From NCBI GenBank assembly GCA_019638285.1, contig JAHBUB010000008.1, positions 1 to 64,000 on the forward strand: a stretch of DNA of 64,000 nt, in the 5' to 3' direction. The DNA is from Cyclobacteriaceae bacterium. GTDB lineage: Bacteria; Bacteroidota; Bacteroidia; Cytophagales; Cyclobacteriaceae. This document shows positions 4,714 to 41,721 of this stretch, piece by piece. How positions within the stretch are numbered: the first letter of the stretch is position 1; every line of letters starts with the position of its first letter. The notes under the pieces are model-generated. The model made no database searches and was not told where the DNA came from. It saw nothing but the letters and a program-made list of their open reading frames with translations. A program made the translations under genes and the position numbers.

Positions 4714-4729
4714 GGCAATTTTATTTTAG

Positions 4730-4755: not shown

Positions 4756-4978
4756 GTCAGTAATAACAATATTACGGGTTGAAATAAAAAGAGGTTTGCT
4801 GTGAGTGGAGATTTTCTGCGCTTGACAGGCTTACTTTTATTGACTCATCACTAGAAGGGTATGTTACTTTAGGCACATCAAAACATTAAGTAGCTGTGAT
4901 GGGAAACCCAGATTGCTTCGGTTGTTCCCTCCTCGTAAAGACGTGCTATTTTGGTTTTGCGTAATTCCCGATGTTCAC

Positions 4979-6550: not shown

Positions 6551-8170
6551 ATGAATATTCTTGAATACGAAAACGTTATAGTGGGAGGTGGATTGGCCGG
6601 GATATCAGCAGCCATTGAACTACTGGATAATAATAAAGGAGTCCTTATTATTGAAAGGGATATAGCAGGGAATTTTGGTGGATTGGCAAAGAAGTCTTTT
6701 GGTGGTATTTTATTTTGTGGTACACCTCTGCAAAGGAGAGCAGGAATCAAAGATTCAGCCAAATTGCTATATGAGGACTGGATGCGGTATGGTGAATTCA
6801 CTGACAGAGATAGTTTAGGCGCGAAATGGGCTAAGTTTTATTCAGATCATTCCATTTCTATTATTTATAAATGGCTAATAGATAAAAAGGTTGAATTTCT
6901 TCCTGTTGTTAATTGGCCTGAACGCGGTATGTATGTAAAAGGAAATTCAGTTCCCCGATGGCATATCACCTGGGGAACTGGTTATGATTTATCTAATCAG
7001 GTTGTGAAATATTTGCTGAATCATAAAAATAAAAAGGACTTGGAAATAAAGTTTCAGCACAAGGTGGAGTCTATTGTTGTTGAAAATAAAAAAGCAGTAG
7101 GTGTTGAAGTTTTGGATGAATCAGCAAAACAAAGAGTGAGCATCACAGCACAAAATATAATCATTGCCTCTGGAGGAATTACAGGCGGCAATTTGGAATT
7201 GGTTAAAAAGAATTGGCATCCTAACCTCGGTAGTCCACCCGATACTTTATTAAATGGATCTCATCAATATGCGGATGGAACAATTCATTTAGATCTGGAA
7301 CAAAAGGGGATACCTTCTACCCACTTAAATAGACAATGGCACTATGCTGCTGGGATTCCAACTCCAAGCCCGGAAAAAGGAAAATTCAGAGATGGCTTAA
7401 GTTTGGTTCCGCCCAGGTCCGCCATTTGGGTAGATTCAACAGGCAAGCGATTTCAACCACCGTTAGTTGGGTATACGGATACCTTATTTTTTGTAGAAAA
7501 CATACTGAAGACAGAACATCAGTACTCATGGAGTGTAATGAACTGGAAAATTGCCATTAAAGAGTTAGCAGTTTCAGGTTCAGAATATATGAGTGCTTTC
7601 AGAAATAAGAATAAGTTAACGATGATAAAAGAAGTTTTGCTCGGTAACAAAGCATTAGTGAATAGATTGATTGATGAATCAGATCACTTTGTGGTCGCTG
7701 ACACTATTGAGGAGTTAGTAAAAAAAATGAATCAACAAGGGAGTAGTGATTTAGTGAATTTGGAAACACTTAGAAAGGGCTTGAAAGATTATGACGATGA
7801 AATTGATCGTGGGAAATCATACTTTAATGATGAGCAGTTAAGGCGATTAATTAATTTTAGATTGTATAGCGGAGATAAAATCAGAACTTCAAAATTTCAA
7901 AAGATACTTGATCCCAAAGCAGGGCCATTAATTGCTGTCAAACAATATATTTTGAGTAGAAAAAGTTTGGGTGGCATTCCTACTAATCTCAATTCACAAG
8001 TCATTAATAAGGAGGGTGATGTTATCTCAGGACTCTATGCTGTAGGTGAGTCTGCCGGATTTGGAGGAGGGGGCATTCATGGGGTCAGATCATTAGAAGG
8101 TACTTTTTTAGGGTCTTGTATTTTAACAGGGAGAGTAGCCGGAGCGCACATATCAGGAATAAAATTGTAA
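6551..8170 (+). CDS. FAD-binding dehydrogenase (KsdD/fumarate-reductase-like)
   Basis: A 539-residue flavoprotein. The N-terminus has the Rossmann dinucleotide-binding motif VGGGLAGISAAIEL followed by an ERD end-of-strand acid. A second FAD-binding segment lies near the C-terminus (GLYAVGESAGFGGGGIHG). This layout matches the large FAD-binding dehydrogenase family related to 3-ketosteroid dehydrogenases and fumarate reductases. There is no signal peptide, so it is probably cytoplasmic. The ThDP enzyme starts 12 bases downstream, so the two form an operon and probably act on the same compound. The substrate is unknown; nothing else nearby points to steroid metabolism. Confidence 0.8.
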   Translation: MNILEYENVIVGGGLAGISAAIELLDNNKGVLIIERDIAGNFGGLAKKSFGGILFCGTPLQRRAGIKDSAKLLYEDWMRYGEFTDRDSLGAKWAKFYSDHSISIIYKWLIDKKVEFLPVVNWPERGMYVKGNSVPRWHITWGTGYDLSNQVVKYLLNHKNKKDLEIKFQHKVESIVVENKKAVGVEVLDESAKQRVSITAQNIIIASGGITGGNLELVKKNWHPNLGSPPDTLLNGSHQYADGTIHLDLEQKGIPSTHLNRQWHYAAGIPTPSPEKGKFRDGLSLVPPRSAIWVDSTGKRFQPPLVGYTDTLFFVENILKTEHQYSWSVMNWKIAIKELAVSGSEYMSAFRNKNKLTMIKEVLLGNKALVNRLIDESDHFVVADTIEELVKKMNQQGSSDLVNLETLRKGLKDYDDEIDRGKSYFNDEQLRRLINFRLYSGDKIRTSKFQKILDPKAGPLIAVKQYILSRKSLGGIPTNLNSQVINKEGDVISGLYAVGESAGFGGGGIHGVRSLEGTFLGSCILTGRVAGAHISGIKL

Positions 8171-8182
8171 AAAAGATTTTCT

Positions 8183-9910
8183 ATGAATAAAACAGGGGCA
8201 TGGTTAGTTGTTAACGCCTTAGAGCAATTACCGATATCACATACGTTTGGTGTTCCTGGGGTACATAACACGGAGATTTATGATGAATTAAATAAGTCCG
8301 AAAAGATCACACCGATATTAGTAACCCACGAAGGTGGTGGTGCATTTATGGCCGATGCGGTAAGCCGTACATCAGATAATATTGGAACACTGGTTATTGT
8401 ACCGGCAGCCGGAGTCACCCATGCGTTAAGTGGTATTGGCGAAGCGTTCTTAGATGGTATTCCCATGCTTATCATCTCCGGTGGAATTCGTACGGATGTC
8501 AATAAAAGTTATCAGCTTCATGAATGGGACATGCATTCGGTGTTAAGTGGAATCACTAAAAAGACTTATAAGATAAAAAGCCATCAGGAAATAATGCCAA
8601 GTATTTTCGAGGCATATACTATCGCGATCTCTGGAAATCCCGGTCCGGTCTTTATTGAGATTCCGGCAAACATTCAATTGTTTAAGGGGGAGGTTTCAGA
8701 AATACCATCCTATAAAAAGCCAGAAAGTAAACCGGCCATACTCGGGCCTCAAATCGATGAAGCCATTCAAATAATTTCAGAATCTAAAAGAGTAGGATTG
8801 TTTTTAGGGTGGGGAGCCAGAGAGGCGACTGCTATAAGTGTACAAATTGCCGAAAGACTAAATGCACCTGTATCAACCACACTACAAGGCTATAGCGTCT
8901 TTCCTGGTGATCATCCGTTATTCACCGGAATGGGTTTTGGTCCCGCATCTGTACCCGCTTCTGAAAATGCCTTTAAAGATGTTGATTGTTTAATTGCAGT
9001 AGGAACAAGATTTGCGGAACTGCCTACAGGAAGCTTTAGCGCAGAAGTTCCTGAGAACCTTATTCATATCGATATCGATAAAAATGTTTTCGATAAAAAT
9101 TACAAGAGTAAACTGGCGATACAAGGTGATGCAAAACAGGTTTTAGAATCTTTATTAACCGAACTCACAAAAAAGAATATCCAAAAAAATGACCCACATT
9201 TAATTAGTTCTATTGCAAAAGATAAACAGGGTTATTATAAAGAATGGTCTGATTATAAATTCGATCGGGTCAATCCCTATCATTTCTTTAAGAGTTTAAG
9301 AAACAATCTTGAAAGGGATGCTATTGCTGTTGTGGATGATGGCAATCACACATTCCTTACTGTAGAGTTATTTCAGAATCTGGAAAGCAAACATTTCATT
9401 AGCCCTACGGATTTCAATTGCATGGGTTACTGCGTACCCGCAGCCATAGGCGCTAAATTTGCTCATCCGAACAAACAGGTTATTGGGATTGTGGGTGATG
9501 GAGCATTTCTTATGACGGGGCTGGAGTTGTTGACTGCAAAAAGAAATAATTTGGGAATTGTAATTTTTGTATTTCATGATGGAGAGCTTTCTCAGATATC
9601 TCAAGGGCAAGAGATTCCTTATAATAGAAAAACAGCTACACAATTAGGAGATTTTAAATTAGAAGGCATTGCTGACGCTGTGGGCGCCACTTACCTGGCT
9701 ATAGAAGATGACACTCAGATAGATCAAATTATTAGTGCTGCACTCAAGGAGGCCAAAGTCGATAGGATTGTCTTGGTGGATGTGTTTATAGATTATGATA
9801 AGCGAACTCGATTCACCAAAGGGGTTGTGAAGTCGGTTTTAGGAAATTTTCCTTTTAGTGATAAAATTCGGTTTATTGGCAGGGCCATAACGCGAAAGAT
9901 TTTAGGGTAA
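8183..9910 (+). CDS. Thiamine-diphosphate-dependent enzyme (acetolactate-synthase-like)
   Basis: A 575-residue three-domain ThDP enzyme of the acetolactate synthase/benzoylformate decarboxylase superfamily. The catalytic Glu that activates ThDP is about E50 in VTHEGGGAF. The ThDP/Mg motif starts with GDG at about 438-440. At the end of that motif most relatives have Asn-Asn; here it is His-Asp (FHDGE), so the usual Asn metal ligand is replaced by Asp (about D466). A C-terminal extension of about 30 residues is basic and amphipathic. It is co-transcribed with the FAD dehydrogenase. It is unlikely to be the biosynthetic IlvB, since no IlvN, IlvC or IlvD gene accompanies it. The reaction is unassigned. 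Confidence 0.85.
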   Translation: MNKTGAWLVVNALEQLPISHTFGVPGVHNTEIYDELNKSEKITPILVTHEGGGAFMADAVSRTSDNIGTLVIVPAAGVTHALSGIGEAFLDGIPMLIISGGIRTDVNKSYQLHEWDMHSVLSGITKKTYKIKSHQEIMPSIFEAYTIAISGNPGPVFIEIPANIQLFKGEVSEIPSYKKPESKPAILGPQIDEAIQIISESKRVGLFLGWGAREATAISVQIAERLNAPVSTTLQGYSVFPGDHPLFTGMGFGPASVPASENAFKDVDCLIAVGTRFAELPTGSFSAEVPENLIHIDIDKNVFDKNYKSKLAIQGDAKQVLESLLTELTKKNIQKNDPHLISSIAKDKQGYYKEWSDYKFDRVNPYHFFKSLRNNLERDAIAVVDDGNHTFLTVELFQNLESKHFISPTDFNCMGYCVPAAIGAKFAHPNKQVIGIVGDGAFLMTGLELLTAKRNNLGIVIFVFHDGELSQISQGQEIPYNRKTATQLGDFKLEGIADAVGATYLAIEDDTQIDQIISAALKEAKVDRIVLVDVFIDYDKRTRFTKGVVKSVLGNFPFSDKIRFIGRAITRKILG

Positions 9911-10050
9911 ACAAAGCCTTACCTAAGGTGATTCTTAGCGAATGTTTTGATAGGAGGATGGTTCGTGTCGTACGATGTTCACCCTACTGTATCAATGAAA
10001 AAAGGAGCGACATTTATTATTACAAGTGCTCATCAACCGCTTGTCTGGAG

Positions 10051-10083
10051 TTTGCTAAAATGAACTTATATTAACTAAATTGG
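10051..10083 (+). promoter_or_regulatory. Promoter candidate for the YceI gene
   Basis: TTTG (10051-10054), a 21-base spacer, then TAAATTGG (10076-10083), one mismatch from the Bacteroidota -7 consensus TAnnTTTG. The same TAAATTGGTG string recurs in front of mqo at 10740. Confidence 0.4.
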
Positions 10084-10109
10084 TGTTCTAGGAAGAAACC
10101 AAATTAATT

Positions 10110-10682
10110 ATGAAGAAAAATAGCCTACTCTCGCTGATTATTATAATGTTTATTGCTGTTGGTGCCGATGCCCAAGTCTGGAAAATTGATCCCAACCATG
10201 CCAGTATCATGTTCAATGCGAAGCATTCTGGAATTTCGATTGTCAATGGAAGATTCATGCAATTTGAGGCTTCCGTGACAGGGGGAACACCGCAAGATTT
10301 TACTGGTGCGAAAGTAAATTTCACGGCACAAGTTAGCAGTATCAGTACTGGAGCTGAAGGACGGGACAAGGACTTGAAGAGTGCTAATTTTTTTGATATG
10401 CAAAATAATCCAACCATCAGTTTTGTAAGTAAATCGTTCACCAAAACAGGTGATCATATGTACAAAGTGGTAGGCGATTTGACCATGAGAGGAAATACCA
10501 AAGAAGTGGAGCTATCCGCAAACCATATCGGATCTACTAAGACGGGGGATGGACTTAACAAAGTGGGGTTTCAATTGACCGGTAGCGTAGATAGAAACGA
10601 TTTCGGAATATCAGGTGCATCAGGTTCTGTGGCGCCAATCATAGAAATTCTCTGTAACGTAGAAATGAGTGAGCAGAAATAG
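10110..10682 (+). CDS. YceI-family periplasmic lipocalin-like protein
   Basis: A 190-residue exported protein with a signal peptide (about residues 1-21, cleaved after ADA) and a single YceI domain. YceI proteins form lipocalin-like barrels that bind polyisoprenoid or other amphiphilic molecules. Typical features are the opening WKIDPNHASIMFNAKHSG, the central DLKSANFFDMQNNPTISF, and the closing NDFGISG. No cytochrome b561 gene is adjacent, although one lies at 41944. The ligand is unknown. Confidence 0.92.
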   Translation: MKKNSLLSLIIIMFIAVGADAQVWKIDPNHASIMFNAKHSGISIVNGRFMQFEASVTGGTPQDFTGAKVNFTAQVSSISTGAEGRDKDLKSANFFDMQNNPTISFVSKSFTKTGDHMYKVVGDLTMRGNTKEVELSANHIGSTKTGDGLNKVGFQLTGSVDRNDFGISGASGSVAPIIEILCNVEMSEQK

Positions 10683-10715
10683 TATAAACTGGAGTAAAAT
10701 CCAACACGCTGAATA

Positions 10716-10747
10716 CTTGCAAGCGGCACTTCGATAACCTAAATTGG
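10716..10747 (+). promoter_or_regulatory. Promoter candidate for mqo
   Basis: CTTG (10716-10719), a 20-base spacer, then TAAATTGG (10740-10747), giving a transcription start near 10754, just before the ATG at 10770. The -7 box is identical to that of the YceI gene upstream. Confidence 0.4.
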
Positions 10748-10769
10748 TGGGCTTTAAGCCAAAACGGCT

Positions 10770-12272
10770 ATGACACAGACAATTAAGCCCCTCATCCAGG
10801 AGACCGATGTGGTTTTAATGGGTGCAGGTATCATGAGCGCAACACTGGGCATGTTGCTAAAGGAGCTCGACCCCACTATTACCATACAAATTTTTGAACG
10901 CCTGGATCAGGCTGGAACAGAAAGTTCGGATGCCTGGAACAACGCGGGTACGGGCCATTCGGCTTTTTGCGAGTTGAATTATACACCACAAAAGGAGGAC
11001 GGTTCAATCAATATTTCAAAAGCAGTTAAGATTGCTGAGTCTTTCGAGTTGTCGAAAGAGTTTTGGGCTTATCTGGTTCAAAAGAATTATATCAAACCCT
11101 CAGAATTTATTACTCAGGTTCCTCATATTAGTTTGGTGTGGGGAGAGGAGAATGTGGCATTTCTTAAAAAGAGGCACAGTCTAATGAGCGAAAACCCACT
11201 CTTTAAAGGCATGGCCTATACCGAAGACAGGGACTTAATGGCAACATGGGCGCCCCTGGTGATGCGGGGACGTAAGAGCACGCAGAAGGTGGCGGCTACT
11301 TGCATGGACATAGGCACAGATGTGAATTTTGGAAACCTTACGCGAAGTATGATTGCCCAACTGGAGAAAATGCCAGGGGTAACTGTTCATTATAATGTAG
11401 AAGCACTTGATCTCGATCCGGATGGTAAAGGAGGATGGGATGTGTTTGTTAGGAACTTGTTGAGTATGCAAAAGAGTCAGTGCAATGCGAAATTTGTATT
11501 TATTGGTGCTGGGGGAGCTACGTTGCATTTATTAAAACGTGCAGAGATTGAAGAGCGCAAAGGGTATGGAGGTTTTCCGGTGAGTGGGTTGTGGTTGAGA
11601 TGCCTTAATGAAGAATTGATTGCCAAACATCATGCGAAAGTATATGGTAAAGCTTCGGTAGGAGCGCCCCCCATGTCAGTACCACACATTGACACGCGCA
11701 TGATCAACGGGAGAAAACAATTATTGTTTGGTCCGTTTGCCGGATTCTCTACCAAGTTTTTAAAGAATGGATCGTTAATGGATTTACCCAAGTCCATCAG
11801 ACCCGATAACGCTATTCCTATGATTTTTGCGGGATTAAAGAATATGTCACTTACAAAATACTTGATTGAACAAGTACGACAGACACCGGAAGAGCGACAT
11901 GCGGCATTGCGCGAATACATTCCCTTCACCATGTTGACTGACTGGGAGCTGTTGGAGGCAGGTCAGCGTGTTCAGGTAATTAAAAAAGATAAGAAAAAAG
12001 GAGGAGTGCTTGAGTTTGGAACTGAGGTAGTATTATCAAAGGATGGCACGGTAGCTGCCTTATTGGGTGCTTCTCCGGGAGCATCTACCGCAGCGTCCAT
12101 TATGTTGAACTTGATTACGCAGTGTTATAAAAACGCAAGCAAGACAGAAAAGTGGCAGGCTAAATTGAAAGAGATGGTGCCAACCTTTGGTGTGTCTTTG
12201 TCAGAAGACGAGAAGCAATTAGAGGAAACCAGAAAGCGTACGACAGCGATTTTGGAATTGAAAAAGTCTTAG
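10770..12272 (+). CDS. mqo: Malate:quinone oxidoreductase
   Basis: A 500-residue FAD-dependent, membrane-associated enzyme that oxidises L-malate to oxaloacetate and passes electrons to quinone, bypassing NAD-malate dehydrogenase in the TCA cycle. The N-terminal FAD motif is VLMGAGIMSATLG (about residues 15-27), followed by the diagnostic Mqo stretch ESSDAWNNAGTGHSAFCELN. The length matches the family. The end of the protein keeps LLGASPGASTAASIML. The phospholipase D-like gene begins 13 bases after the stop, so the two may be co-transcribed, though no functional link is evident. Confidence 0.97.
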   Translation: MTQTIKPLIQETDVVLMGAGIMSATLGMLLKELDPTITIQIFERLDQAGTESSDAWNNAGTGHSAFCELNYTPQKEDGSINISKAVKIAESFELSKEFWAYLVQKNYIKPSEFITQVPHISLVWGEENVAFLKKRHSLMSENPLFKGMAYTEDRDLMATWAPLVMRGRKSTQKVAATCMDIGTDVNFGNLTRSMIAQLEKMPGVTVHYNVEALDLDPDGKGGWDVFVRNLLSMQKSQCNAKFVFIGAGGATLHLLKRAEIEERKGYGGFPVSGLWLRCLNEELIAKHHAKVYGKASVGAPPMSVPHIDTRMINGRKQLLFGPFAGFSTKFLKNGSLMDLPKSIRPDNAIPMIFAGLKNMSLTKYLIEQVRQTPEERHAALREYIPFTMLTDWELLEAGQRVQVIKKDKKKGGVLEFGTEVVLSKDGTVAALLGASPGASTAASIMLNLITQCYKNASKTEKWQAKLKEMVPTFGVSLSEDEKQLEETRKRTTAILELKKS

Positions 12273-12285
12273 TGCTTATCTAAAC

Positions 12286-13860
12286 ATGGGTTTCCTGTCT
12301 TTCCTAAAATTCATTTTAAAAATTGTTGATCCTGCTTTGAGTGGGTTGTCACTTTTAGTGATAATACTCATCTGTGGATGTTCCTCAGGGAAAGAAACGT
12401 ATCCCGTAATTGACGAAAACTTTTGCGCGCAAATACATTTGGACAGCGCACATGCACTTTCAGTACAGCTTGATCCATTTAAGGATTTAATGTTGAGCAA
12501 AACGGGTGTTTATACTTTAGAAGAAGGAGACAAGGCAATGGTCGCCAGGGCCTGGTTGACAGAATCGGCTGAGGAATCTATAGACATTCAGTACTTTATA
12601 TTTTCTGCCGATAACATTGGCTTGATTGCAATTGACTATTTATTGCGTGCGGCAGATCGTGGGGTAAAAGTGCGCATGCTGGTTGACGATATTATGGTAG
12701 AAGCGGATGCAGAAGACTTAATGGCGCTGGATGGACATCCCAATTTATCGATTAGGATTTATAATCCAACAGCCAATATCGGTAAGAATTTGCCAGAAAA
12801 ATTATACAGCCTTTCAAAAGATTTTCATGGCTTTAACCAACGGATGCACAATAAGACTTTTATAGTGGATCAAAAAGTAGTAATAACAGGAGGGAGAAAT
12901 ATTGCGGACGAATATTTTGACTACGACCATGAATACAATTTTCGTGATCGTGATGTTTTGTTGATTGGTGAGGTGACCAAGGATATCAACAAGTCTTTTG
13001 GGGAATTTTGGAACAGTGATCTGAGCGTCCCTTTGTCAGATCTATTCGATGCAAAGAATTTAGACTTGAATGCAGAAGCGAAATACGATTACATTCATCA
13101 ATATGCCTGCAATCCGGAAAATTTTTGGCCACAGGTGAGGGATAAAATACGATCTGTTCCCATTGCATTTAAAAACATTCAGGATTCAGGTGATTTGGTG
13201 TGGGTGGACAGTGTTTCGTTTGTATCCGATAAGCCTGGTAAGAATGGAGAAGATGGATTAAAGGGAGGAGGGTTGAGTACCGATCATCTTATTGATTTAA
13301 TAAAAAAGGCTAAGAAGTCGGTGTATATCCAATCGCCCTACCTGGTAACTACTGAATTAAGCCAGCGGCTTTTTGATGAAGCAGTGAAGAGGGGAGTAGC
13401 AGTGAAGATACTCACCAATAGTATGACGTCTACAGATAATCTGGAAGCATTCAGTGGCTATAAAAGAGATAGAAAAAAATTATTGGAAACAGGTATTGAT
13501 ATATATGAATTTAAATCTGATGCTGCTATTCGATTTAAAGTAATGACCGGAGCATTGCAGAAGGAGATGGACTACACACCCATTTTTGGTTTACATGCCA
13601 AGTCGATGGTAGTAGATGAAGCCATTGCAGTAATTGGCACTTTTAATTTAGATCCGAGAAGCGCTAATCTCAATACGGAATGTGTTGCAGTGGTTTATGA
13701 CAGTACAATAGCTAGAAATTTGTATACCGCCATGCAGGAGGATATGAAGCCGGAGAATGCCTGGCATACTACTTTGGAGTTTAATCCTGATGACGAGGCT
13801 GGATGGTGGAAGCAGTTTAGTATTTGGTTAAGGGGAGTAGTCCCCAAATCAATATTGTAG
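12286..13860 (+). CDS. Phospholipase D-family (cardiolipin-synthase-like) lipoprotein
   Basis: A 524-residue protein with two HKD catalytic motifs: HNKTFIVD (H188, K190, D195) and HAKSMVVD (H437, K439, D444), the second followed by GTFNLDPRSANLNTE. Both motifs are intact, so phosphatidyl transfer or phosphodiesterase activity is expected. The N-terminus is hydrophobic and ends in a lipobox-like LICGC (Cys about 31), so it is probably a lipoprotein exposed to the periplasm rather than a cytoplasmic ClsA/B. Relatives are often annotated as cardiolipin synthase-like or YmdC. The actual substrate is unproven. Confidence 0.88.
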   Translation: MGFLSFLKFILKIVDPALSGLSLLVIILICGCSSGKETYPVIDENFCAQIHLDSAHALSVQLDPFKDLMLSKTGVYTLEEGDKAMVARAWLTESAEESIDIQYFIFSADNIGLIAIDYLLRAADRGVKVRMLVDDIMVEADAEDLMALDGHPNLSIRIYNPTANIGKNLPEKLYSLSKDFHGFNQRMHNKTFIVDQKVVITGGRNIADEYFDYDHEYNFRDRDVLLIGEVTKDINKSFGEFWNSDLSVPLSDLFDAKNLDLNAEAKYDYIHQYACNPENFWPQVRDKIRSVPIAFKNIQDSGDLVWVDSVSFVSDKPGKNGEDGLKGGGLSTDHLIDLIKKAKKSVYIQSPYLVTTELSQRLFDEAVKRGVAVKILTNSMTSTDNLEAFSGYKRDRKKLLETGIDIYEFKSDAAIRFKVMTGALQKEMDYTPIFGLHAKSMVVDEAIAVIGTFNLDPRSANLNTECVAVVYDSTIARNLYTAMQEDMKPENAWHTTLEFNPDDEAGWWKQFSIWLRGVVPKSIL

Positions 13861-13985
13861 GATAAGAATTCTTAAAAATTATTTGATTGATATTGATTAT
13901 ATTGAATTAGCTAAGGTAGAAGATTGAATCGGAAGTCAAACTACAGCTGTCTACAACCCAATAAGTTTCACTTGAATTTACAACT

Positions 13986-14765
13986 ATGAAATTTTTAGTT
14001 TTATGTTGTGTTTTGTTGCCAACCTTTGCATTTTCTCAATCGGATAAAGGGATAATGCTGAGCGATCTTAGTTGGGTGGAGGCAGAGAAAGTACTTACCA
14101 AAGAAACCATTGTAGTGATTCCTTTAGGAGCGGCTTCCAAAGAACATGGCCCACATTTGTTGTTAAAGAATGATCTTATTCTGGCGGAATACTTAACTGC
14201 GCGAGTCCTTAGAGAGGCCGATGTGGTGATTGCGCCAACCATCAATTACCATTTCTATCCTTCATTTTTGGAATACCCGGGGTCTACTTCTTTAAGATTG
14301 GGTACAGCCCGCGATTTGGTGGTTGATATCTGTAGAAGCCTTGCTGCATATGGCCCCAAAAAATTTTACATCCTGAATACTGGAATTTCTACAGTGCGAG
14401 CGCTTAACCCAGCCCGTGACACACTTGCCAATGATGGAATCACCATGCGGTTCACTGACCTAAATGGTATTTCAGACGTAGAAGATAAAATCAAACAAGA
14501 AGAGGGAGGAACACATGCCGATGAAATTGAAACTTCTATGATCTTGTACATGCGGCCCAAAGCCGTAGACATGCAAAAGGCGGTTAAAGACTATGCACCC
14601 AATCAAGGAAAAGGGCTTACGCGCAATCCTAATAATACAGCCTCCACCTATTCGCCATCAGGTGTATGGGGCGATGCTACATTGGCTTCTTATGAGAAAG
14701 GAAGGATTGTGACGGAGGCGCTGGTTGAGATGATTCTGGATGACATTAGGAAAATGAAAGAGTAA
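13986..14765 (+). CDS. Creatininase-family secreted amidohydrolase
   Basis: A 259-residue protein with a signal peptide (about residues 1-18, ending FAFSQ) followed by a creatininase-fold domain. Visible family motifs are VVIPLGAASKEHGPHLLLKND, holding a conserved E, H and D of the metal site, and GGTHADEIETSMIL near residue 180. Creatininase relatives hydrolyse cyclic or linear amides. Most family members are cytoplasmic, so the signal peptide is a notable difference that is seen in some Bacteroidota members. The substrate is unknown. Confidence 0.85.
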   Translation: MKFLVLCCVLLPTFAFSQSDKGIMLSDLSWVEAEKVLTKETIVVIPLGAASKEHGPHLLLKNDLILAEYLTARVLREADVVIAPTINYHFYPSFLEYPGSTSLRLGTARDLVVDICRSLAAYGPKKFYILNTGISTVRALNPARDTLANDGITMRFTDLNGISDVEDKIKQEEGGTHADEIETSMILYMRPKAVDMQKAVKDYAPNQGKGLTRNPNNTASTYSPSGVWGDATLASYEKGRIVTEALVEMILDDIRKMKE

Positions 14766-14781
14766 GTTTAACCATGCTGAA

Positions 14782-15267
14782 ATGATGACTACCTGGTACC
14801 TTGAGATGTTGGATAGGAATGATTTCAAGCCAAAATACCTTGATGACAAAAACCTACAGGTGCTTGAAGTGAAAGTAAAAGATTTCAGGTACAATCGATT
14901 TCTTTACTCCATGGTGGGCGAACAATGGAGTTGGACCGACAAATTGAAATGGAGTGATGACGAGTGGCGGGCTTATGCGGAAGACGAAAATTTATATACC
15001 CACGTGAGTTATTATGATGGGGCACCTGCTGGTTACTTCGAATTGCAATGGGAGGAAAGTGAAAATGTAAAAATTGTTTATTTTGGCTTGTCACCGAAGT
15101 TTATAGGAAAAGGAATGGGTGGTCATTTATTGTCATGCGCGATTGCGTCAGCGTGGAAGATGAATCCTATTCGGGTTTGGGTTCACACTTGCAGCATGGA
15201 CCATCCATCGGCTCTCAACAACTACAAGGCGCGAGGGATGAAGGTGTATGAATCCAGAATTAACTAA
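14782..15267 (+). CDS. GNAT-family N-acetyltransferase
   Basis: A 161-residue single-domain GNAT protein. The acetyl-CoA-binding motif A is seen as FGLSPKFIGKGMGGHLLSCAI, where RGKG is replaced by IGKGMGG. This is followed by RVWVHTCSMDHPSALNNYKARGM, the usual motif B. The acceptor is unknown. Its ATG lies 14 bases after the creatininase-family stop, so it is probably co-transcribed with that gene. It converges on tex, ending 3 bases before it. Confidence 0.88.
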   Translation: MMTTWYLEMLDRNDFKPKYLDDKNLQVLEVKVKDFRYNRFLYSMVGEQWSWTDKLKWSDDEWRAYAEDENLYTHVSYYDGAPAGYFELQWEESENVKIVYFGLSPKFIGKGMGGHLLSCAIASAWKMNPIRVWVHTCSMDHPSALNNYKARGMKVYESRIN

Positions 15268-15270
15268 TGC

Positions 15271-17541
15271 CTATTTCTTAAACTTCTCCCTCAGCTGCGC
15301 TAATTTATCCTCCATACTTTCTTCTTTTCTTTTTGGAGGTTGTGCTTTAACATTTTTTTGAACCTTTTTCTGAGCTTCCTTTTTAACAGGAGCGGGATTT
15401 GCACCAAACGGGTCGCTTTTCATTGATAATGCAATCCGCTTCCTTGGAATATCAACCTCCACTACTGTTACTTTCACCTTTTGCTGTACAGCAATGATGG
15501 CACTGGGATCCTTTACAAACTGATCGCTTAAGTGGCTGATATGAACCAGCCCATCCTGATGTACACCAATGTCTACAAAGGCACCAAAGTTGGTTACGTT
15601 GGTTACAATTCCCGGAAGTACCATGCCTATCTTAAGATCTTTTATTTCATTCACACCCTCCTCAAAGGAAAATACTTCAAATTGATCACGAGGATCTCTT
15701 CCTGGTTTTTCTAATTCTGCGAGGATATCAGTAAGTGTAGGGAGTCCTACGGTTTCGGTGACATACTTTTTTAAATCTAACTTTCTCCGTAATTCTGCAC
15801 TGTTCATCAAATCTTTGATGGTGCAGTTCAGGTCTTTAGCAAATTGCTCCACCAACTCATATCGCTCAGGATGCACCGCGCTTGTATCTAGTGGATTTTT
15901 GGAATCACGGATGCGAAGGAAGCCTGCGCATTGTTCGAATGCTTTATCTCCAAGGCGTGGCACTTTGCTCAGTGATTTTCGATCTTTAAATGCGCCATTC
16001 TGGTTGCGGTATTCAACGATGCTTTTGGCAAGTTGTGGGCCAAGACCCGATACGTATGAAAGTAAGTCCCGGCTGGCTGTATTTACTTCAACGCCTACTG
16101 AGTTCACACAACTCATCACCACGTCATCCAGGCCTGCTTTTAATTTAGCTTGATCCACATCATGTTGATATTGCCCCACACCAATCGACTTAGCATCTAA
16201 TTTCACCAATTCTGCCAAGGGATCCATTAACCTTCTCCCGATGGATACTGCACCTCGCACGGTAATGTCTTTATCTGGAAATTCCTCCCTCGCCACTTCA
16301 GAAGCAGAATATACAGACGCTCCGCTTTCGTTTACCATTACAATAATAATTTCTTTTGGTAACCCAATGGCCTTTACGAACGATTCTGTTTCTCGGCTGG
16401 CAGTTCCGTTTCCTATAGCAATGGCTTCAATATTAAACCGATCGCACAGCCCCATTACGATTGTACTCGACTTTGCTGTTTCTCGTTGAGGTTCGTGAGG
16501 GTAGATGACGGTGTCAAATAATAATTCACCTTGTTCGCCCAGACACACCAACTTAGTTCCAGAGCGAAATCCAGGATCGAGCGCCAGTACTCTTTTTTGT
16601 CCTAACGGGGAAGCAAGCAATAGTTCTTTCAGATTGGAAGAGAATACCTTGATGGCTTCCTGATCCGCCTTCATTTTGGTTTCTACCCTTATCTCTGTTT
16701 CCAGTGATGGTTTTAGTAATCGTTTGTAGCTGTCTTTCACAGCCAATAATACCTGCTCACTGGCTGCAGATTTAGACTTTATAAATTGCCTTTCTAATAA
16801 TTGAATAGCTTGCGACTCATCGGGAGCGATGTCCAGGGTGATGAAACTTTCTTTTTCAGCCCTGCGCATGGCCAACAATCGATGTGAGGGGGTTTTGCTA
16901 ATGGATTCTTTCCAATCAAAATAATCTTTGAACTTTTGAGCTTCCTCGCTTTCTGCTTTTGACTTTACTACAGAAGCCTGAATCACTCCTTCTTTCCAGA
17001 ATAGTTCTCTAATGTTTTGTCGTGCTTCTTGATTTTCACTTACCCACTCCGCTATAATATCTCGTGCACCAGCCAATGCATCCTCTTCATTGGCTACACC
17101 TAATTCAGTGTTGATATAAGTAGCTAATGCTTTATCGAGATCAACATGACCTTGTTCGAAAAGGAGTGTCGCCAATGGTTCAAGCCCTTTTTCTTTGGCA
17201 GCCGTTGCACGGGTTTTGCGCTTTGGTTTGTAGGGCAAGTAAATGTCTTCTAATTCTGTGAGCGTTTCTGCCTTTTGAATCAGCTTTTCCAGTTCCGGGG
17301 TAAGGAATTGTTGCTTTTCAATGGATTTAAGGATGGCATCCCTTCGTTTATCTAATTCCACCAATTGTTCATGCTTATCACGAATGGCTGCCAGCGCTAC
17401 CTCATCCAGGGTGCCTGTCATTTCTTTTCGATATCGGGCAATAAAGGGGATGGTTGATCCAGCATCCAGTAATTCTACTACTACCTTCACCTGATTTGTG
17501 GTAAGACCAAGTGCTGAGGCGATGCGGGAAATATTATCCAT
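15271..17541 (-). CDS. tex: Tex-family S1 RNA-binding transcription accessory protein
   Basis: A 756-residue protein with the full Tex order: N-terminal Tex helical region, a YqgF/RNase H-like domain (about 325-430, opening RVLALDPGFRSGTKLVCL), helix-hairpin-helix segments (about 490-570) and a C-terminal S1 domain (about 640-705, GIVTNVTNFGAFVDIGVHQDG). A Lys-rich tail follows. Tex proteins bind nucleic acid and affect transcription and stress tolerance. The length is normal for the family and the sequence appears intact. The start ATG at 17541 is unambiguous. Confidence 0.96.
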   Translation of the reverse strand: MDNISRIASALGLTTNQVKVVVELLDAGSTIPFIARYRKEMTGTLDEVALAAIRDKHEQLVELDKRRDAILKSIEKQQFLTPELEKLIQKAETLTELEDIYLPYKPKRKTRATAAKEKGLEPLATLLFEQGHVDLDKALATYINTELGVANEEDALAGARDIIAEWVSENQEARQNIRELFWKEGVIQASVVKSKAESEEAQKFKDYFDWKESISKTPSHRLLAMRRAEKESFITLDIAPDESQAIQLLERQFIKSKSAASEQVLLAVKDSYKRLLKPSLETEIRVETKMKADQEAIKVFSSNLKELLLASPLGQKRVLALDPGFRSGTKLVCLGEQGELLFDTVIYPHEPQRETAKSSTIVMGLCDRFNIEAIAIGNGTASRETESFVKAIGLPKEIIIVMVNESGASVYSASEVAREEFPDKDITVRGAVSIGRRLMDPLAELVKLDAKSIGVGQYQHDVDQAKLKAGLDDVVMSCVNSVGVEVNTASRDLLSYVSGLGPQLAKSIVEYRNQNGAFKDRKSLSKVPRLGDKAFEQCAGFLRIRDSKNPLDTSAVHPERYELVEQFAKDLNCTIKDLMNSAELRRKLDLKKYVTETVGLPTLTDILAELEKPGRDPRDQFEVFSFEEGVNEIKDLKIGMVLPGIVTNVTNFGAFVDIGVHQDGLVHISHLSDQFVKDPSAIIAVQQKVKVTVVEVDIPRKRIALSMKSDPFGANPAPVKKEAQKKVQKNVKAQPPKRKEESMEDKLAQLREKFKK

Positions 17542-29852: not shown

Positions 29853-32800
29853 ATGCGAAGGCAGTATTTTTTAATCTTTTATTTTGTTTTAGGATTTGCA
29901 TTGTTATCCTCCTGGAGCAGTATTGCCCAACCTACAGTTAGCATTCAAAATGTAAAAAATGCCTGTGATGGCCTTGCCAACGGTTCGTTTGAAATCCTGG
30001 TAACAGCAGCCAACAATCCTCCTTTAGAGGTTAATGTTTTTGGCCCTCCCAACCAAGGCCCTTTTGCACTTACAGTAGGTGTGCCTTTTATGGTATCAAA
30101 CTTACTAGGATCTCCTGGGGGAAGAAGTTATGTAATAATAGTGCAGGATGCCGATGGAAGCACTGTATTGAATGAGACTATTTTTACTACTCCGGTAAAT
30201 TTGGCTGCATCTGTGGGGTCCTCGGCTGTGAACACCAACTGTGTTACCCCAGATGGATCTATTAATATTAGTGTTTCCGGAGGTTCAGGAGCTTACTCTT
30301 TTCAGTGGTCGGGGCCAGCAGGGTTTGTAGATCCTGGAACTGAAGATCTATCGGGTCTTTCAGCAGGCTCTTATTCTCTGATAGTATCCGATTTAAATAC
30401 AAATTGTACGAGATCAGTGGGCCCTGTCAATATTACCGATCCCTCACCAACTCCATTCACGGTGTCTACGGTAACCCCTTCTGTTTGTCTTGGGGATGGT
30501 GGAACTGTTAACCTTGACGGATCAGAAGGTGCTGCGGTGATGTATCAAATATATAAAGACGGTATTCCTACAGGAATAACTCAAGCAGGCACGGGTGGGC
30601 CTTTGTCTTTTGCAATCCCTTCTGGGTTATTAACTCCAACTGACGCATATACCTTTACCATAGAGGCCATCAATGGATCGTGCGCCCCCTTGTTTATGAA
30701 TGGAAACGGCATCATTACAGTTAATCCACTGCCTACAATTTCCCTGAGTGCCAACCCCAGTGTTTGTGAAGGAACAACAAGTGGAAGTTTGGCGTATACT
30801 TCGACCACAAATGTGCCTGATCAATACCGGATAGACTGGGATGCAGCAGCAGAAACAGCCGGCATGGTAGACGTAGCTTTAAATGCACTACCGGCTTCAC
30901 CTATTCCTATCACTGGCATTCCTTTGGCGACAGGAACTTACAATGCTACTTTGTATGTAAAAATAAGTGGTACTAACTGCGAAAGTGCAGGCGATCCAAT
31001 TAGTGTCACCGTAGATGCTTTACCGACCATTACAATAGGAGCCAATCCAGAGGTATGCACCGGCACTACAGTTAGTAGTTTGACATACTCATCTACCACG
31101 GGAGCGCCTGATCAATATCGGATAGATTGGGATGCAGTAGCAGAAACAGCAGGCATGGTGGATGTAGCTTTAGGCGCGCTACCAGTATCGCCAATTCCCA
31201 TTACGAGTATCCCAGTAGCGGCAGGTACCTACAATGGTATTTTATATGTGACCACAAGCGGAACCACCTGTGAAAGTGTGGGTGTTGCAATCAGTATAAC
31301 CGTAAATGATTTGCCCACGATTACATTAGGAGCTAACCATAATGTGTGTTCAGGAGTTACTAATAGCAGTTTAGCCTATTCTGCCACAACTGGAGCAGAT
31401 CAATATCGAATAGATTGGGATGCAGCAGCAGAGGCAGCGGGTATGGTAGATGTAACTTTAAGCGCACTACCTGTTTCACCCATTTCCATTATAGGTATTC
31501 CTATGGCACCTGGCACCTACAATGGTACTTTGTATGTAAAGACAATTGGCACTACCTGTGAAAGTACAGGGAATGCTATTAGTATAAACGTAGAAGATTT
31601 GCCTACTATTACATTAGGTGCCAATCCTGAAGTGTGTACAGGAACTACTAATAGCACTTTAACTTATTCAGCCACTACAGGAGCGCCAGATCAATATCGA
31701 ATAGATTGGGACGCAGCAGCAGAGACAGCAGGCATGGTGGATGTGGCTTTAAGCGTGCTACCTGTTTCACCCATTTCCATCACGGGTATTCCGGTAGCGG
31801 CAGGTACTTACAATGGTACTTTGTATGTGACCACAAGTGGAACCACCTGTGAAAGTGTGGGTGATGCTATCAGTGTGACTGTAACAGGATTACCAACAAT
31901 AACCCTAGGAGCAATCCCGGCAGTATGTCTTGGAATAACTAGTGCAGATTTAGCCTATTCCGCAACGACCAATTCCCCTGACCAATTTAGAATAGATTGG
32001 GATGTTGCCGCAGAAACTGCCGGTCTGGTTGATGTAGTAGCAACGGCACTCCCGGCTACACCAATTGTGATTAACAATGTGCCCAACGCGATAGGTACAT
32101 ATAACGGAATATTGTATGTAATGAATGATGGACTCACATGTGAAAGTTCAGGGAATCCTATTAGTGTTACTGTCATTGCTTTGCCCACAATTACTTTGGG
32201 GGCTGGTCCTGTAGTGTGTGCAGGTGTAACATCCAGTAGTATATCTTATTCGGCAATCACCGGTGGCCCCAATCGGTTTAGAATAGATTGGGATGCAGCG
32301 GCAGAAGGAGCAGGATTAACCGATGTTGCGGCAACAGCATTGCCGGGCACTCCCATACCAATTAATAATATCCCGTTAGCAGGAGGCACCTATTCCGGAG
32401 ATTTGTTTGTAATAAATAGTGGAACAGGTTGCGAAAGCTCAGCCAATCCAATTTCAGTAACTGTTCAGGCGGTAACGGCAACCTTAAGTGGAGACGCTAC
32501 CAAGTGCGGGGGCTCAGCTACTACATTAATAGTAAATTTTACAGGCCCCGGACCGACATGGAACTTTACCTACAGTGATGGGTTTTCTAATACCAATCTA
32601 TTGGCAAACAGTAATCCATTCACTTTTTCGGTGAACCCAATAATTTCAACTACTTATTCTTTAGTGGATGTGACCGGAGTCACTTGTGGTGCGGGAACGG
32701 TAAGTGGTTCGGCCACAATTACCGTTAGGCCAATTGCAGGTAACCCATCCACCTTTGGATCTGAAACCTGGCTGGCGTATGTGTATGACGACAGTGGAAA

Positions 32801-37977: not shown

Positions 37978-38331
37978 GTGGAAGAGAATAAGAATAACGG
38001 AAGGGACGAAATATTTTCGGAGAAAGTGAAAGCTGGAAAGCGGACATACTTCTTTGATGTAAAGGCAACCCGATCAAATGATTACTACCTGACCATTACA
38101 GAAAGTAAGAAGAGGTATAACAAAGATGATGAAGGATTTACGTATGAGAAACACAAAATTTTTCTGTACAAAGAAGACTTTAACAAATTTGTCGAAGCAT
38201 TAAATAACACCGTGAACCATGTGAAGTCCGAGTTGATGCCAGATGTGGATTTTGACCAATTTGATCAACCTAGAGAAGCTTCCGAAGAGGCCAAGACCTC
38301 AACGATCGACACAGAACTAAAATGGGACTAG
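37978..38331 (+). CDS. PUR-family (DUF3276) nucleic-acid-binding protein
   Basis: A 117-residue protein with one PUR domain (about residues 10-85; AGKRTYFFDVKATRSNDYYLTITESKK and YEKHKIFLYKEDFNKF). It resembles the Borrelia and Bacteroidota PUR proteins that bind single-stranded DNA or RNA and can regulate transcription. The C-terminal 35 residues are acidic. The start is a GTG at 37978. It is monocistronic, with its own promoter and a strong terminator. Confidence 0.9.
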   Translation: MEENKNNGRDEIFSEKVKAGKRTYFFDVKATRSNDYYLTITESKKRYNKDDEGFTYEKHKIFLYKEDFNKFVEALNNTVNHVKSELMPDVDFDQFDQPREASEEAKTSTIDTELKWD

Positions 38332-38458: not shown

Positions 38459-39556
38459 ATGGCACTCAGATGTGGAATTGTTGGGCTCCCCAACGTAGGT
38501 AAATCAACCCTCTTTAATGCATTATCGAACAATAAAGCAGAGGCAGCAAATTTCCCTTTCTGTACAATTGAACCCAATGTGGGTGTAATAGCTGTTCCGG
38601 ATGAGCGGCTTGATATATTAAAAGGTCTTGTTAACCCACAAAGGGTGCTGCCAACGACTTTTGAATTTGTAGATATTGCCGGCCTGGTAAAGGGAGCAAG
38701 CAAAGGGGAAGGACTTGGCAATCAGTTTCTTGCTAATATTCGAGAAGTGGATGCCATTGCCCACGTAGTAAGATGCTTTGAAGACGATAACATCATTCAT
38801 GTGGATGGCAGGATAAAGCCCATTGCTGATAAGGAGATTATAGATACAGAATTACAACTCAAGGACCTCGATTCGGTAGAGAAAAAATTGGCGAAGACAG
38901 AGCGCTCTGCTAAAGGAAGTGACGCTAAAGCAAAGAAAGAATTAGTTAGCCTTAAAATGTACAGAGATGCCTTGTTGGCAGGTAAGAATATTCGGGTGGT
39001 AGAAGCAAGTGAAGAGGACAGAGCTTCTATTGAGGATCTACAATTGCTTACTGCGAAACCTGTGGTATATGTAGCTAACGTAGAGGAAGCATCGGTGCAT
39101 ACCGGTAACGCCTTTTCGAAGGAGTTGGAAGCAAAGGCAAAAGAGGAGGGAGCGGAAACTATTGTGGTTTGTGCGGCCATCGAAGCCCAAATTGCTGAGT
39201 TGGATACAGTAGAGGATCGGGAACTGTTTTTAGAAGAATATGGATTAAAAGAATCAGGCTTGGGTAAGTTAGTAAGAGCCACTTATAGCTTACTCGATTT
39301 AATTACCTATTTCACGGCTGGGGTTCAGGAAGTGAGAGCCTGGACCATAAAAAAAGGATGGAAAGCACCTCAGGCGGCTGGTGTTATCCATTCTGATTTT
39401 GAAAAAGGCTTTATTAAAGCAGAGGTGATTAAATTAGCTGATTATCAGCAATATAAGACTGAAGCAGGTTGCCGGGAGGCTGGGAAATTGGCCATTGAGG
39501 GAAAGGATTATGTGGTGAAAGACGGTGATATCATGCATTTTAGGTTTAATGTTTAA
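38459..39556 (+). CDS. ychF: Redox-responsive ATPase YchF
   Basis: An Obg-family P-loop NTPase of about 365 residues, the usual YchF length. G1 is GLPNVGKST, G3 is DIAGLVKGAS, an alpha-helical coiled-coil insertion lies at about 130-200, and a C-terminal TGS domain runs from about 280. YchF prefers ATP and associates with ribosomes. The frame is open to ATG at 38426, but the extra residues (MPLFTTVIIII) are not family-like, so ATG at 38459 is the start. Confidence 0.96.
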   Translation: MALRCGIVGLPNVGKSTLFNALSNNKAEAANFPFCTIEPNVGVIAVPDERLDILKGLVNPQRVLPTTFEFVDIAGLVKGASKGEGLGNQFLANIREVDAIAHVVRCFEDDNIIHVDGRIKPIADKEIIDTELQLKDLDSVEKKLAKTERSAKGSDAKAKKELVSLKMYRDALLAGKNIRVVEASEEDRASIEDLQLLTAKPVVYVANVEEASVHTGNAFSKELEAKAKEEGAETIVVCAAIEAQIAELDTVEDRELFLEEYGLKESGLGKLVRATYSLLDLITYFTAGVQEVRAWTIKKGWKAPQAAGVIHSDFEKGFIKAEVIKLADYQQYKTEAGCREAGKLAIEGKDYVVKDGDIMHFRFNV

Positions 39557-39670
39557 AGAATCCTTACATCAAACGGCTCGATTCAACTGATTTTTAGTAT
39601 TTTAGCTATCCGTAGTTAATTTTTTAGCGGCACTCATAAGGTTATTTTTTTAATGACATAATCCGCAGAC

Positions 39671-40471
39671 GTGAGAATCCGGATCGTTTTTTCGCTTAAA
39701 AATAGAGGAGCTTATGTTCCTTTTCACCACCAATTCTTATTGGCCCAAACCATTAAAGGGCTCATTATGATCGGTGGCAGTAAGGATTTTGCTGACTATA
39801 AGCAATTCAATTTTTCTGGCCTTAAGGGACAAATCAAAATTAGCCGCAAAGGCCTTCATTTCTTTTCCTCTAAGGTTACGCTGGTGTTTTCTGCGGCTGA
39901 TAAACCCTTCCTCGATTATTTCCTGGGGGTTCTTTTTGCACAAAAGGATTTGATGATTGGAAATCTGCAATTGCAACCGGAGTCTTTCGAAAATGAAGAC
40001 CCGGTGATCATTACGGATTCAGTGAAGTTCTTGTGCATTTCACCCATTGTATTGTTGCCTGGTTCATTCAATGACGATAATGCCAAGCGTTTTATTACCC
40101 CGCAAGAGGATGAATTTTCAGATCTGCTGTATGACTCTACTCTTGCGCGGATGGAGGCCAGTGGGAAATATACTCCAGAACAGTTGGTCAATTTTTATAA
40201 ATTTCAGGTGGTGGCAGACCGCGAGTATCTCAACCGAATTCAGTCATCTCACAAGAAGTTTGCCCGCATTTATCCGGTGTACGATTCAGATATAAAATTC
40301 GAAGTAAGGGGCTATACCTTTCCGTTTACCATGTATGCACCCCAGCCGGTTCAACAATTTGTTTACGAACACGGTCTGGGTCATTTTTCTCACAAAGGGT
40401 TCGGGATGCTGGATGTGGCCAATGCAGATTCCAAGGCTTCAGAATCCAAAGAAGAATTTAACTACGCCTAA
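39671..40471 (+). CDS. cas6: Orphan Cas6-like RAMP endoribonuclease
   Basis: A 266-residue protein with Cas6 hallmarks. The N-terminal ferredoxin-like strand MRIRIVFSLKN is followed by YVPFHHQFLLAQTIKGLI, the Cas6 first helix with candidate catalytic His19/His20. The mid-protein segment CISPIVLLPG is typical, and the glycine-rich G-loop near the C-terminus is GLGHFSHKGFGMLDV. Cas6 enzymes cut CRISPR precursor RNA, but no CRISPR array or other cas gene is visible here. The gene starts with GTG at 39671 and ends overlapping the convergent T9SS plug gene by 4 bases. It lies among housekeeping genes, so it may process a distant array or have taken on another RNA. The family call is firm; the function is open. 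Confidence 0.8.
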   Translation: MRIRIVFSLKNRGAYVPFHHQFLLAQTIKGLIMIGGSKDFADYKQFNFSGLKGQIKISRKGLHFFSSKVTLVFSAADKPFLDYFLGVLFAQKDLMIGNLQLQPESFENEDPVIITDSVKFLCISPIVLLPGSFNDDNAKRFITPQEDEFSDLLYDSTLARMEASGKYTPEQLVNFYKFQVVADREYLNRIQSSHKKFARIYPVYDSDIKFEVRGYTFPFTMYAPQPVQQFVYEHGLGHFSHKGFGMLDVANADSKASESKEEFNYA

Positions 40472-41721
40472 CGAGGATTAATCGCTATAGGAAAGTATCC
40501 AACAAGTAAATCTGCATTGGGCTGAAAAGGGCGATAGTAAAAGAAAACTTCATAGAAATTTTCAGTTTCAAAATGACTCCCTTCAAAATGTGTGGGTAAA
40601 AGTTGACTGCCCTGCGCAAGGTATTGATAATTATACCACCCTTGCTTTAGCAGTTGTGTGTTTTGATAAGTGCTGGTGATAGGGTCAAAATTCATCTCGC
40701 TCTCCTGATTTTTGATCCATTGATTAAATGCGCCCACTACAAAAACCTTTGTCTTTTCTAATTCTGAAGACTTTAGTGTGAATGTGACATCAACATAATT
40801 AGAGGCGGTTTCATCATTTCCGTTGTCTCTATTTTCAACATAAAACTGTCCGTTGATGTCAGGGTATTGAGAATAGACTTCATTGGCTCTTGATGCATCG
40901 GGTTGAACCCATAGGTGGTAGGGCCTGCTGGTCTTATCAATACGGTCTGTATTTTGCCCTGGAAAGTTGATGGATCTGAAATCCACGAAACGAAATTCGT
41001 TGCCTGCTGTAAAGAACTTGTCATTATCAAATAGCCGATATTCAAGTTGGCGAATGTCTTCACGTACAAAACTTGGCTTTACATCAAATTTGGCATTGTC
41101 CCATCGCTGGTTTTGCCGGATGACCACATGGACCGATTCGAATGGATTTATAATTTCAAGACCTTTATAATCCACCGTAAAATTCAATTGTTGATTGGTA
41201 GAACGGAGCGTTAAAGCCCCTGAGGTCTGACTGTCTCGTTTTAGACTTGTGCGGCTTTCGAAGACCATAAAACGGTGAGAAAGAATGATGTCTGACTTGT
41301 TACCATTTCTATATACTACCAGCAGGTAATTTCCAGAGAGCTTTACCCTGGGAAGATTAAACCGGTAATGGACATAAGGAGTTTGTGTGTTGCTAGAGAA
41401 TTCATAATCATTTACGTTGAACTCGTTATAATCGACCATAAAATCAAGATCTCTTAACGAGGAAGCTGTCCAATCGTATTGGCAATGGATAATACGGGCG
41501 TAGTAACTGTTGACATCATTGCGGAGATCGTCAAACTCTAAAACAAGATCATTTTGATTTAACTGGGTAACGGCAGGTAATAAGTGGCTTCTTACTTCGC
41601 TTTTTTCACTGTACAGCTGGATGGATTTAATCTCAGGCTCATAGGCCCTGTTTTCAAAGACAAGCTCCTTTTTAACAGGGTATGCGAATAGTGTCAGAAT
41701 TAGAGGAATGATCCAGCTCAT
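40468..41721 (-). CDS. Type IX secretion system plug protein (DUF5103)
   Basis: A 417-residue exported protein with an N-terminal signal (about 1-17) and the DUF5103 pattern: NRAYEPEIKSIQLYSEKSE, then CQYDWTASSLRDLDFMVDYNEFNVNDYEFS, and a PYVHYRF strand. DUF5103 proteins are T9SS plug proteins that close the periplasmic side of the SprA translocon. Its presence fits the T9SS-sorted proteins at 29853 and 52022. The C-terminal third looks like a carbohydrate-binding/E-set beta fold (KVFVVGAFNQWI). Confidence 0.85.
   Translation of the reverse strand: MSWIIPLILTLFAYPVKKELVFENRAYEPEIKSIQLYSEKSEVRSHLLPAVTQLNQNDLVLEFDDLRNDVNSYYARIIHCQYDWTASSLRDLDFMVDYNEFNVNDYEFSSNTQTPYVHYRFNLPRVKLSGNYLLVVYRNGNKSDIILSHRFMVFESRTSLKRDSQTSGALTLRSTNQQLNFTVDYKGLEIINPFESVHVVIRQNQRWDNAKFDVKPSFVREDIRQLEYRLFDNDKFFTAGNEFRFVDFRSINFPGQNTDRIDKTSRPYHLWVQPDASRANEVYSQYPDINGQFYVENRDNGNDETASNYVDVTFTLKSSELEKTKVFVVGAFNQWIKNQESEMNFDPITSTYQNTQLLKQGWYNYQYLAQGSQLLPTHFEGSHFETENFYEVFFYYRPFQPNADLLVGYFPIAINPR

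Follow-up and report, generated by a model that had tools for sequence, protein, structure and literature searches.

The Tyr/His/Lys triad of the Pfu Cas6 consists of Tyr31, His46 and Lys52, a catalytic histidine is found in helix alpha1 of TtCas6e and PaCas6f, and PfuCas6nc (PDB entry 3ufc) is termed non-catalytic (PMC3652601). Catalytic residues vary among the Cas6 groups and other active sites exist (PMC3652601, PMC3727216). Type II systems rely on RNase III with tracrRNA for processing (PMC6452270), and the available portions of PMC8730458 and PMC6452270 describe the reuse of CRISPR parts as multi-gene modules. Here we report on a single gene of the Cas6 family, for which the name cas6L is coined, located in a 64-kb window (the whole stretch of DNA analysed) of a host genome of 3.98 Mb, which is assembled in 85 contigs and 99.4% complete. 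The gene lies between ychF and a T9SS plug gene, a position pointed out in an earlier note on this DNA and borne out by profile matches of both neighbors:

38459..39556, + strand: ychF, the conserved upstream neighbor (TIGR00092, 494 bits), found upstream on the same strand in 116/116 distinct host-family loci
39671..40471, + strand: cas6L, an orphan Cas6-family protein of 266 aa with matches to PF01881, TIGR01877 and PADLOC Cas6b, a predicted Cas6 fold and one ortholog per genome in 102/118 host-family genomes
40468..41721, - strand: T9SS plug gene, the convergent downstream neighbor (NF052315, 377 bits), convergent in 107/107 loci where it was seen

As read from the open reading frame and its translation, positions 39671-40471 (+) encode 266 aa from a GTG start codon, and the 3' ends of the cas6L and plug ORFs share 4 nt. 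The window protein is a true Cas6 homologue, as the earlier note had proposed: it passes both curated cut-offs, matching PF01881 (Cas_Cas6_C) at 1.9e-19 with 71.1 bits against a cut-off of 23 and TIGR01877 (cas_cas6, NCBIfam) with 61.5 bits against 58.65, which places it in the Cas6 superfamily by homology, and PADLOC assigns it to Cas6b (2.4e-29). An AlphaFold model built from 30 orthologs (pLDDT 76.6, pTM 0.75) displays the tandem RAMP fold expected of such a protein, and its top Foldseek matches are 5yi6, 3qjj and 3ufc, with E values from 1.0e-15 to 4.1e-15 and TM scores (query) of 0.72-0.75. The identity to the best Cas6 chains in the structural match is only 16-21%. Likewise, the closest PDB sequences by profile are 3ufc, on top, the PH0350 chains 3qjj, 3qjl and 3qjp, and 5yi6. 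The C-terminal glycine-rich loop noticed earlier is present as GLGHFSHKGFGM and conserved, with Gly243 and Gly245 in 104/104 orthologs, and the PFHHQ motif of the window protein is also conserved among orthologs.

We hypothesize, with about an even chance of being right, that cas6L is a domesticated, CRISPR-independent Cas6 with a cellular RNA target, acting mainly as a binder and regulating its own expression. Within the host family, whose named relatives include Cyclobacteriaceae, Flammeovirgaceae, Fulvivirgaceae and other Cytophagales records, cas6L behaves as a core gene. A profile built from cas6L orthologs (A1) finds a single ortholog, at 302-495 bits, in each of the 102 carriers, which represent 75 of 84 genera, and no CRISPR Cas6 of these genomes exceeds 41 bits. 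The comparison of the locus across relatives that had been proposed revealed a fixed neighborhood, with the same-strand ychF not more than 305 nt away in 112 of the 116 distinct loci and the convergent plug gene wherever it was seen. Because the place of cas6L is fixed, vertical descent within the host family is supported. The gene is not universally essential, since 16/118 family genomes lack it; 13 of these have a ychF match, and in six (L199, L201, L202, L203, L205 and L208) ychF directly abuts the plug gene, so that natural empty sites are at hand for a comparison of RNA phenotypes. Purifying selection on cas6L is as strict as on ychF, with dN/dS of 0.007-0.049 in the 14 of 22 pairs giving a ratio (the rest being saturated) and of 0.006-0.045 for ychF, and the ratio of cas6L lies below that of the plug gene in six of the seven pairs with both ratios and equals it in the remaining one. 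Many residues are invariant across 86 distinct family sequences, a set obtained from 103 extracted orthologs after leaving out 11 that were partial, N-containing or frameshifted (L046, L053, L077, L083, L086, L088, L091, L092, L093, L096 and L100) and merging six identical rows; the counts over 104 orthologs given here include all 18 from other families. At the locus itself, no Rfam match at E <= 1 was obtained in the window between 36 and 46 kb, and a known RNA was consequently rejected as an explanation. Elsewhere in the window, positions 30806-32037 hold a tandem repeat of coding-like sequence with a 291-nt period and about four copies.

Beyond the host family the distribution is patchy. 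Two other families carry cas6L throughout, f62 in 11/11 and f24 in 24/24 genomes, and class-wide 29/395 genomes match profile A1 with at most six candidates scored per genome: nine from the host family, 18 at 147-212 bits from f24, f41, f62, f71 and f77, and two at 39-45 bits. Seven genomes of the same order belonging to other families gave no match in this class survey, again with at most six candidates scored in each. In the phylum survey of 395 genomes, the matches from outside the class are weaker, at 62-99 bits, and nine of the 11 outside-class loci, those that yielded an ORF, display canonical CRISPR Cas6 motifs. Given this patchiness and the same-order genomes without a match, one has to suppose that cas6L was lost repeatedly or passed from family to family. 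ychF adjoins cas6L in six of the 18 loci of other families (L132, L136, L140, L144, L145 and L146), and the remaining neighbors vary among the 18. The orphans form one clade, with support of 100/98 in a 61-row tree that carries a long-branch warning and of 100/99 in a 37-row tree of 15 CRISPR Cas6s and 22 orphans, 10 of the latter being out-of-family orthologs. From 16 CRISPR Cas6s read, the nine of long type entered the 37-row tree and the active-site comparison, as did six of the outside-class loci; the seven of short type (L004-L007, L013, L014 and L022) are found in the 61-row tree only, and L147-L149 are labelled as CRISPR in the 61-row tree by us, based on their motifs.

The active site sets cas6L apart from its CRISPR homologues. 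A triad signature of I/V-Y, L-H and K/R-x-F-x-F is found in 15/15 long-type CRISPR Cas6s and in 0/22 orphans. The stretch that bears the histidine, of about 14 residues or more, is absent in 20 of the 22, and the two orphans that retain its length, both from f41, have no histidine there. The tyrosine place is occupied by lysine in 81/86 family orthologs and varies elsewhere; the lysine place, third in the Pfu-type triad, is mostly Thr, Asn or Ser in the orphans, and only the window protein retains a lysine there, Lys44. Other residues are shared by the orphans. They read P-F/L-H-H-Q (P-F-N-H-L in f41) where the compared CRISPR Cas6s have P-I/V/L followed by N/G and mostly Y/N, and Lys52 stands within F-S-x-L/I-K in 104/104 orthologs and is lacking in the compared CRISPR Cas6s. 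His20, Ser49, Lys195 and Arg199 are likewise found in 104/104 orthologs. Near the glycine-rich loop, the out-of-family orthologs L129-L143 (f24, f62, f71 and f77) contain LHAHP in place of the YAPQP or similar motif of the host family, and with it an extra conserved pair of histidines.

These residues lead to the strongest alternative, an active endoribonuclease whose site has been relocated to His19/His20 near the start of helix 1, Lys52 and the glycine-rich loop, and which would mature a specific cellular RNA; we consider it possible, if somewhat doubtful. The conservation of His20 and Lys52 in all orthologs and of His19 in 101/104 speaks for it, as does the variation of catalytic residues among Cas6 groups (PMC3652601, PMC3727216), and a new catalytic site at His19/His20 is possible because the catalytic histidine of TtCas6e and PaCas6f resides in helix alpha1 (PMC3652601). 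However, the usual triad is lost, His20 aligns with a histidine of the Pfu and Mja Cas6s that lies outside the Pfu triad and, being shared with them, may be structural, His19 is replaced by Asn in 3/3 members of f41, and the closest PDB profile match is the non-catalytic paralogue 3ufc (PMC3652601). For the two histidines named as candidates in the earlier note, a catalytic role is only a possibility. Since the Tyr/His/Lys triad is gone, the cas6L protein may instead bind RNA without cutting it, as the domesticated-binder reading has it. The earlier suggestion of a domesticated RNA enzyme with a cellular target is supported in part, by the Cas6 fold, the orphan position and the conservation of the locus in carriers in which no CRISPR was detected.

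The next alternative is that cas6L helps CRISPR immunity, either by processing an array in trans or by supporting Class 1 systems, and it appears quite unlikely. Its Cas6 homology is in favor, and effector modules are known to be shuffled in situ around fixed cas6 genes (PMC6452270). In the host, profile search of the contigs found a single Cas6 match, the window protein itself, and a single Cas1 match, located on another contig in a type II locus (L101, host contig C10:24000-43000) in which positions 4230-14297 encode a 1431-aa Cas9-like protein, Cas1_II and Cas2_II beside a long array with a period of about 66 nt. Near this locus, positions 15131-15784 (-) of L101 match PADLOC mads_2 at 5.9e-12. 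No CRISPR-like array was found in the 64-kb window by a script that does detect the array of L101, in agreement with the earlier report of neither an array nor another cas gene there, and instead of being located with cas genes and an array, the family loci are flanked by ychF and the T9SS plug gene. A search for cas operons elsewhere in the genome, also suggested at the time, did uncover a CRISPR locus, but of type II and not of type I or III. No Cas10 palm domain was found in the host genome, and no Cas3 core above the cut-off, the best match reaching 47.3 bits against 102.45; judged on Cas10 and Cas3, the host displays no Class 1 effector genes. The idea that cas6L serves an array elsewhere is consequently without support in the host.

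As to INDEPENDENCE from CRISPR, 59/102 carriers have no Cas1 match, and by profile matches 57/102 have none of Cas1, Cas10, Cas3 above the cut-off or a further Cas6, so that these carriers, too, lend no support to an array elsewhere. The earlier note would take a locus conserved in relatives lacking CRISPR as the sign of an undescribed use of the fold, and the 57 carriers, in which none was detected, provide it. In 14 more carriers, the host included, only a Cas1 of type II grade is found, a grade assigned by us from scores and backed by a confirmed Cas9 for the host locus only. As neither the host nor the majority of carriers showed Class 1 cas genes, processing of an array in trans was set aside as unsupported, the arrays themselves having been sought in the window and in the fetched loci. 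Among 238 fetched loci the array script marked short repeat clusters with CRISPR-like spacing in two, L167 near 11623 and L041 near 935; in L167 the class survey had also given a weak match with the Cas6 profile. A weak tie of cas6L to Class 1 CRISPR is still conceivable, because cas6L is present in 31/32 genomes having Class 1 signals, compared with 71/86 without such signals (Fisher p = 0.066). Nevertheless, Class 1 genomes often own another Cas6, and in 20 genomes a further Cas6 match is found beside the ortholog.

Two weaker alternatives concern a role in defence and no role at all. A defence function using the RAMP fold without CRISPR is very unlikely: array-less exapted CRISPR derivatives have been predicted to act in defence (PMC8730458), but the house-keeping location of cas6L is fixed, its evolution is slow and nearly all family members carry it, unlike what is seen for defence genes. 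That cas6L is a functionless relic is hardly credible, since a gene that stands alone, is missing from 16 family genomes and leaves ychF abutting the plug gene in six of the 13 cas6L-less genomes with a ychF match is nonetheless held at a dN/dS of 0.007-0.049 with many invariant residues over the 86 distinct sequences, and this purifying selection contradicts the relic.

Another feature of the host-family gene, and one that bears on the self-regulation proposed for a domesticated cas6L, is found at its 5' end, where the following elements are recognized:

39598..39605, + strand: promoter-like box TATTTTAG, directly before the leader
39606..39682, + strand: structured U-rich leader, matching covariance model R1 (leader plus 12 coding bases) with 31.6 bits and supported by covariation counts
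39610..39630, + strand: leader hairpin 1, CCGT...GCGG, with a U-run in its loop, supported by the swap test and covariation counts
39640..39655, + strand: second U-run, where the window itself gives little support to a weak hairpin; in the R1 set 80.8% of cells are paired in helix 2 and 68.8% in helix 3
39671..39673, + strand: GTG start codon of cas6L; GTG or TTG in 115/116 distinct family loci

The TATTTTAG box appears to resemble the TAnnTTTG element of Bacteroidota. When the start is placed by homology with the window protein, the 116 distinct host-family loci begin with GTG in 63 cases, TTG in 52 and ATG in one, and codon 2 is AGA or AGG in 115 of them, compared with the use of CGN for Arg4 in 45/116. 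Control genes start with ATG, namely ychF in 136/141 loci, an ABC-F gene in 53/55 and a ferredoxin gene in 63/63; a DUF3276 gene next to ychF (window 37978-38331) has a GTG start that is likewise conserved (66/67 loci). Orthologs of other families start with ATG, in 17/18 at the homologous place and in L134 two codons further on, and the U-rich leader was not seen in these 18 loci. A T-run of at least five within 60 nt upstream is present in 114/116 cas6L leaders, which contain 1.85 T-runs each, against 0.21-1.06 for four neighbor genes.

In the clade of the host the leader has a common layout, in which the promoter-like box is followed by hairpin 1 with its U-run loop and then by the second, weaker hairpin, and a helix of at least four pairs is formed by hairpin 1 in 47/49 leaders. 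In the swap test the pairing of each strand with its own partner beats all swaps, with 0/500 reaching the observed mean, and the 44 distinct R1 matches reveal two-sided changes at 7/7 pairs, both results being inflated by relatedness and the counts also by the model-fitted alignment. In the R1 set 89.3% of cells pair, compared with 72.7% in shuffles, and six slid controls are all lower. When hairpins around the U-runs were tested sequence by sequence, no signal emerged (6.4% at p <= 0.05), so that the support for the hairpins consists of the swap test and the covariation counts only. The MAFFT alignment A2 (44/49 leaders) failed to line up the stems and was excluded from the counts, and A5 and A6 were also set aside. 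We also considered whether the leader represents a family of trans targets, and rejected this: all 42 matches at E < 0.02 from an R1 search of 58 sources (1.05 Mb) are cas6L leaders, and the host genome gives 31.6 bits for the leader against 18.8 for the runner-up, among the 150 of 3913 first-look candidates that were scored with a model including 12 coding bases, conditions under which trans copies may be missed. The weak start codon together with the structured leader suggests that cas6L is under tight and probably self-imposed control.

Putting these observations together, a CRISPR Cas6 ancestor would have lost its CRISPR partners and the Tyr/His/Lys triad, and the resulting triad-less protein would have become a single-copy chromosomal gene next to ychF under strong selection. 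In the present-day protein the Cas6 cleft would accommodate a structured RNA of the cell, with binding prevailing over cutting, and the level of the protein may be held low by the weak start and by its attachment to the U-rich hairpins in the cas6L leader. As the main target we expect a house-keeping RNA, perhaps one tied to translation through YchF; the lasting ychF neighborhood suggests such a link of cas6L with translation, the adjacency being the one observation from which the tie is drawn. Counting for domestication are the single ortholog per genome, the complete coverage of f62 and f24, the place behind ychF, the strict selection, the 57 carriers without Class 1 signals, the single clade, the loss of the triad, Lys52, the profile match to 3ufc, the start codon and the leader, and counting against it are the patchy distribution in the class, the 16/118 genomes lacking the gene, a leader and non-ATG start that other families do not show and the co-occurrence with Class 1 systems at p = 0.066. 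A broader formulation, which we advance tentatively and somewhat short of an even chance, sees in cas6L a Cas6 that became a core gene in several families. Its active site would have been rebuilt (His-His, Lys52) or given up, and the protein would process or chaperone one specific RNA of the cell, connected with translation beside YchF, the U-rich hairpin leader being a small private self-regulatory substrate. If the domesticated reading is true, a lone Cas6 under strong selection without CRISPR is a case of a Cas RNA-binding protein recruited to everyday RNA metabolism. For annotation, a Cas6 label in these Bacteroidota is often no sign of a Class 1 CRISPR system. Searches of the open-licence papers of PubMed Central gave no description of a conserved CRISPR-free Cas6 in Bacteroidota.

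Three described groups resemble cas6L. The exapted CRISPR derivatives, such as type IV, HRAMP and the array-less I-E modules, are also Cas proteins outside ordinary adaptive immunity, but in the available portions of PMC8730458 and PMC6452270 they are multi-gene modules, whereas cas6L is one Cas6-family protein with no adjoining cas gene. With the long Cas6s of I-B/III CRISPR systems (TIGR01877, PF01881; Pfu 3i4h/3pkm and Mja Cas6-1 5yi6) it shares homology, the tandem RAMP fold and the glycine-rich loop; in contrast to these, no Class 1 cas genes accompany it at the locus or were found elsewhere in the host, the Tyr/His/Lys triad is lost, and cas6L is a single-copy chromosomal gene beside ychF. 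The Cas6 paralogues of Pyrococcus, 3ufc (PfuCas6nc) and PH0350 (3qjj/3qjl/3qjp), the latter presumably a non-catalytic paralogue too, are together with 5yi6 its closest PDB profile matches, even though the structural match holds so little sequence identity. The non-catalytic Cas6 paralogues of Pyrococcus occur in archaea that possess CRISPR.
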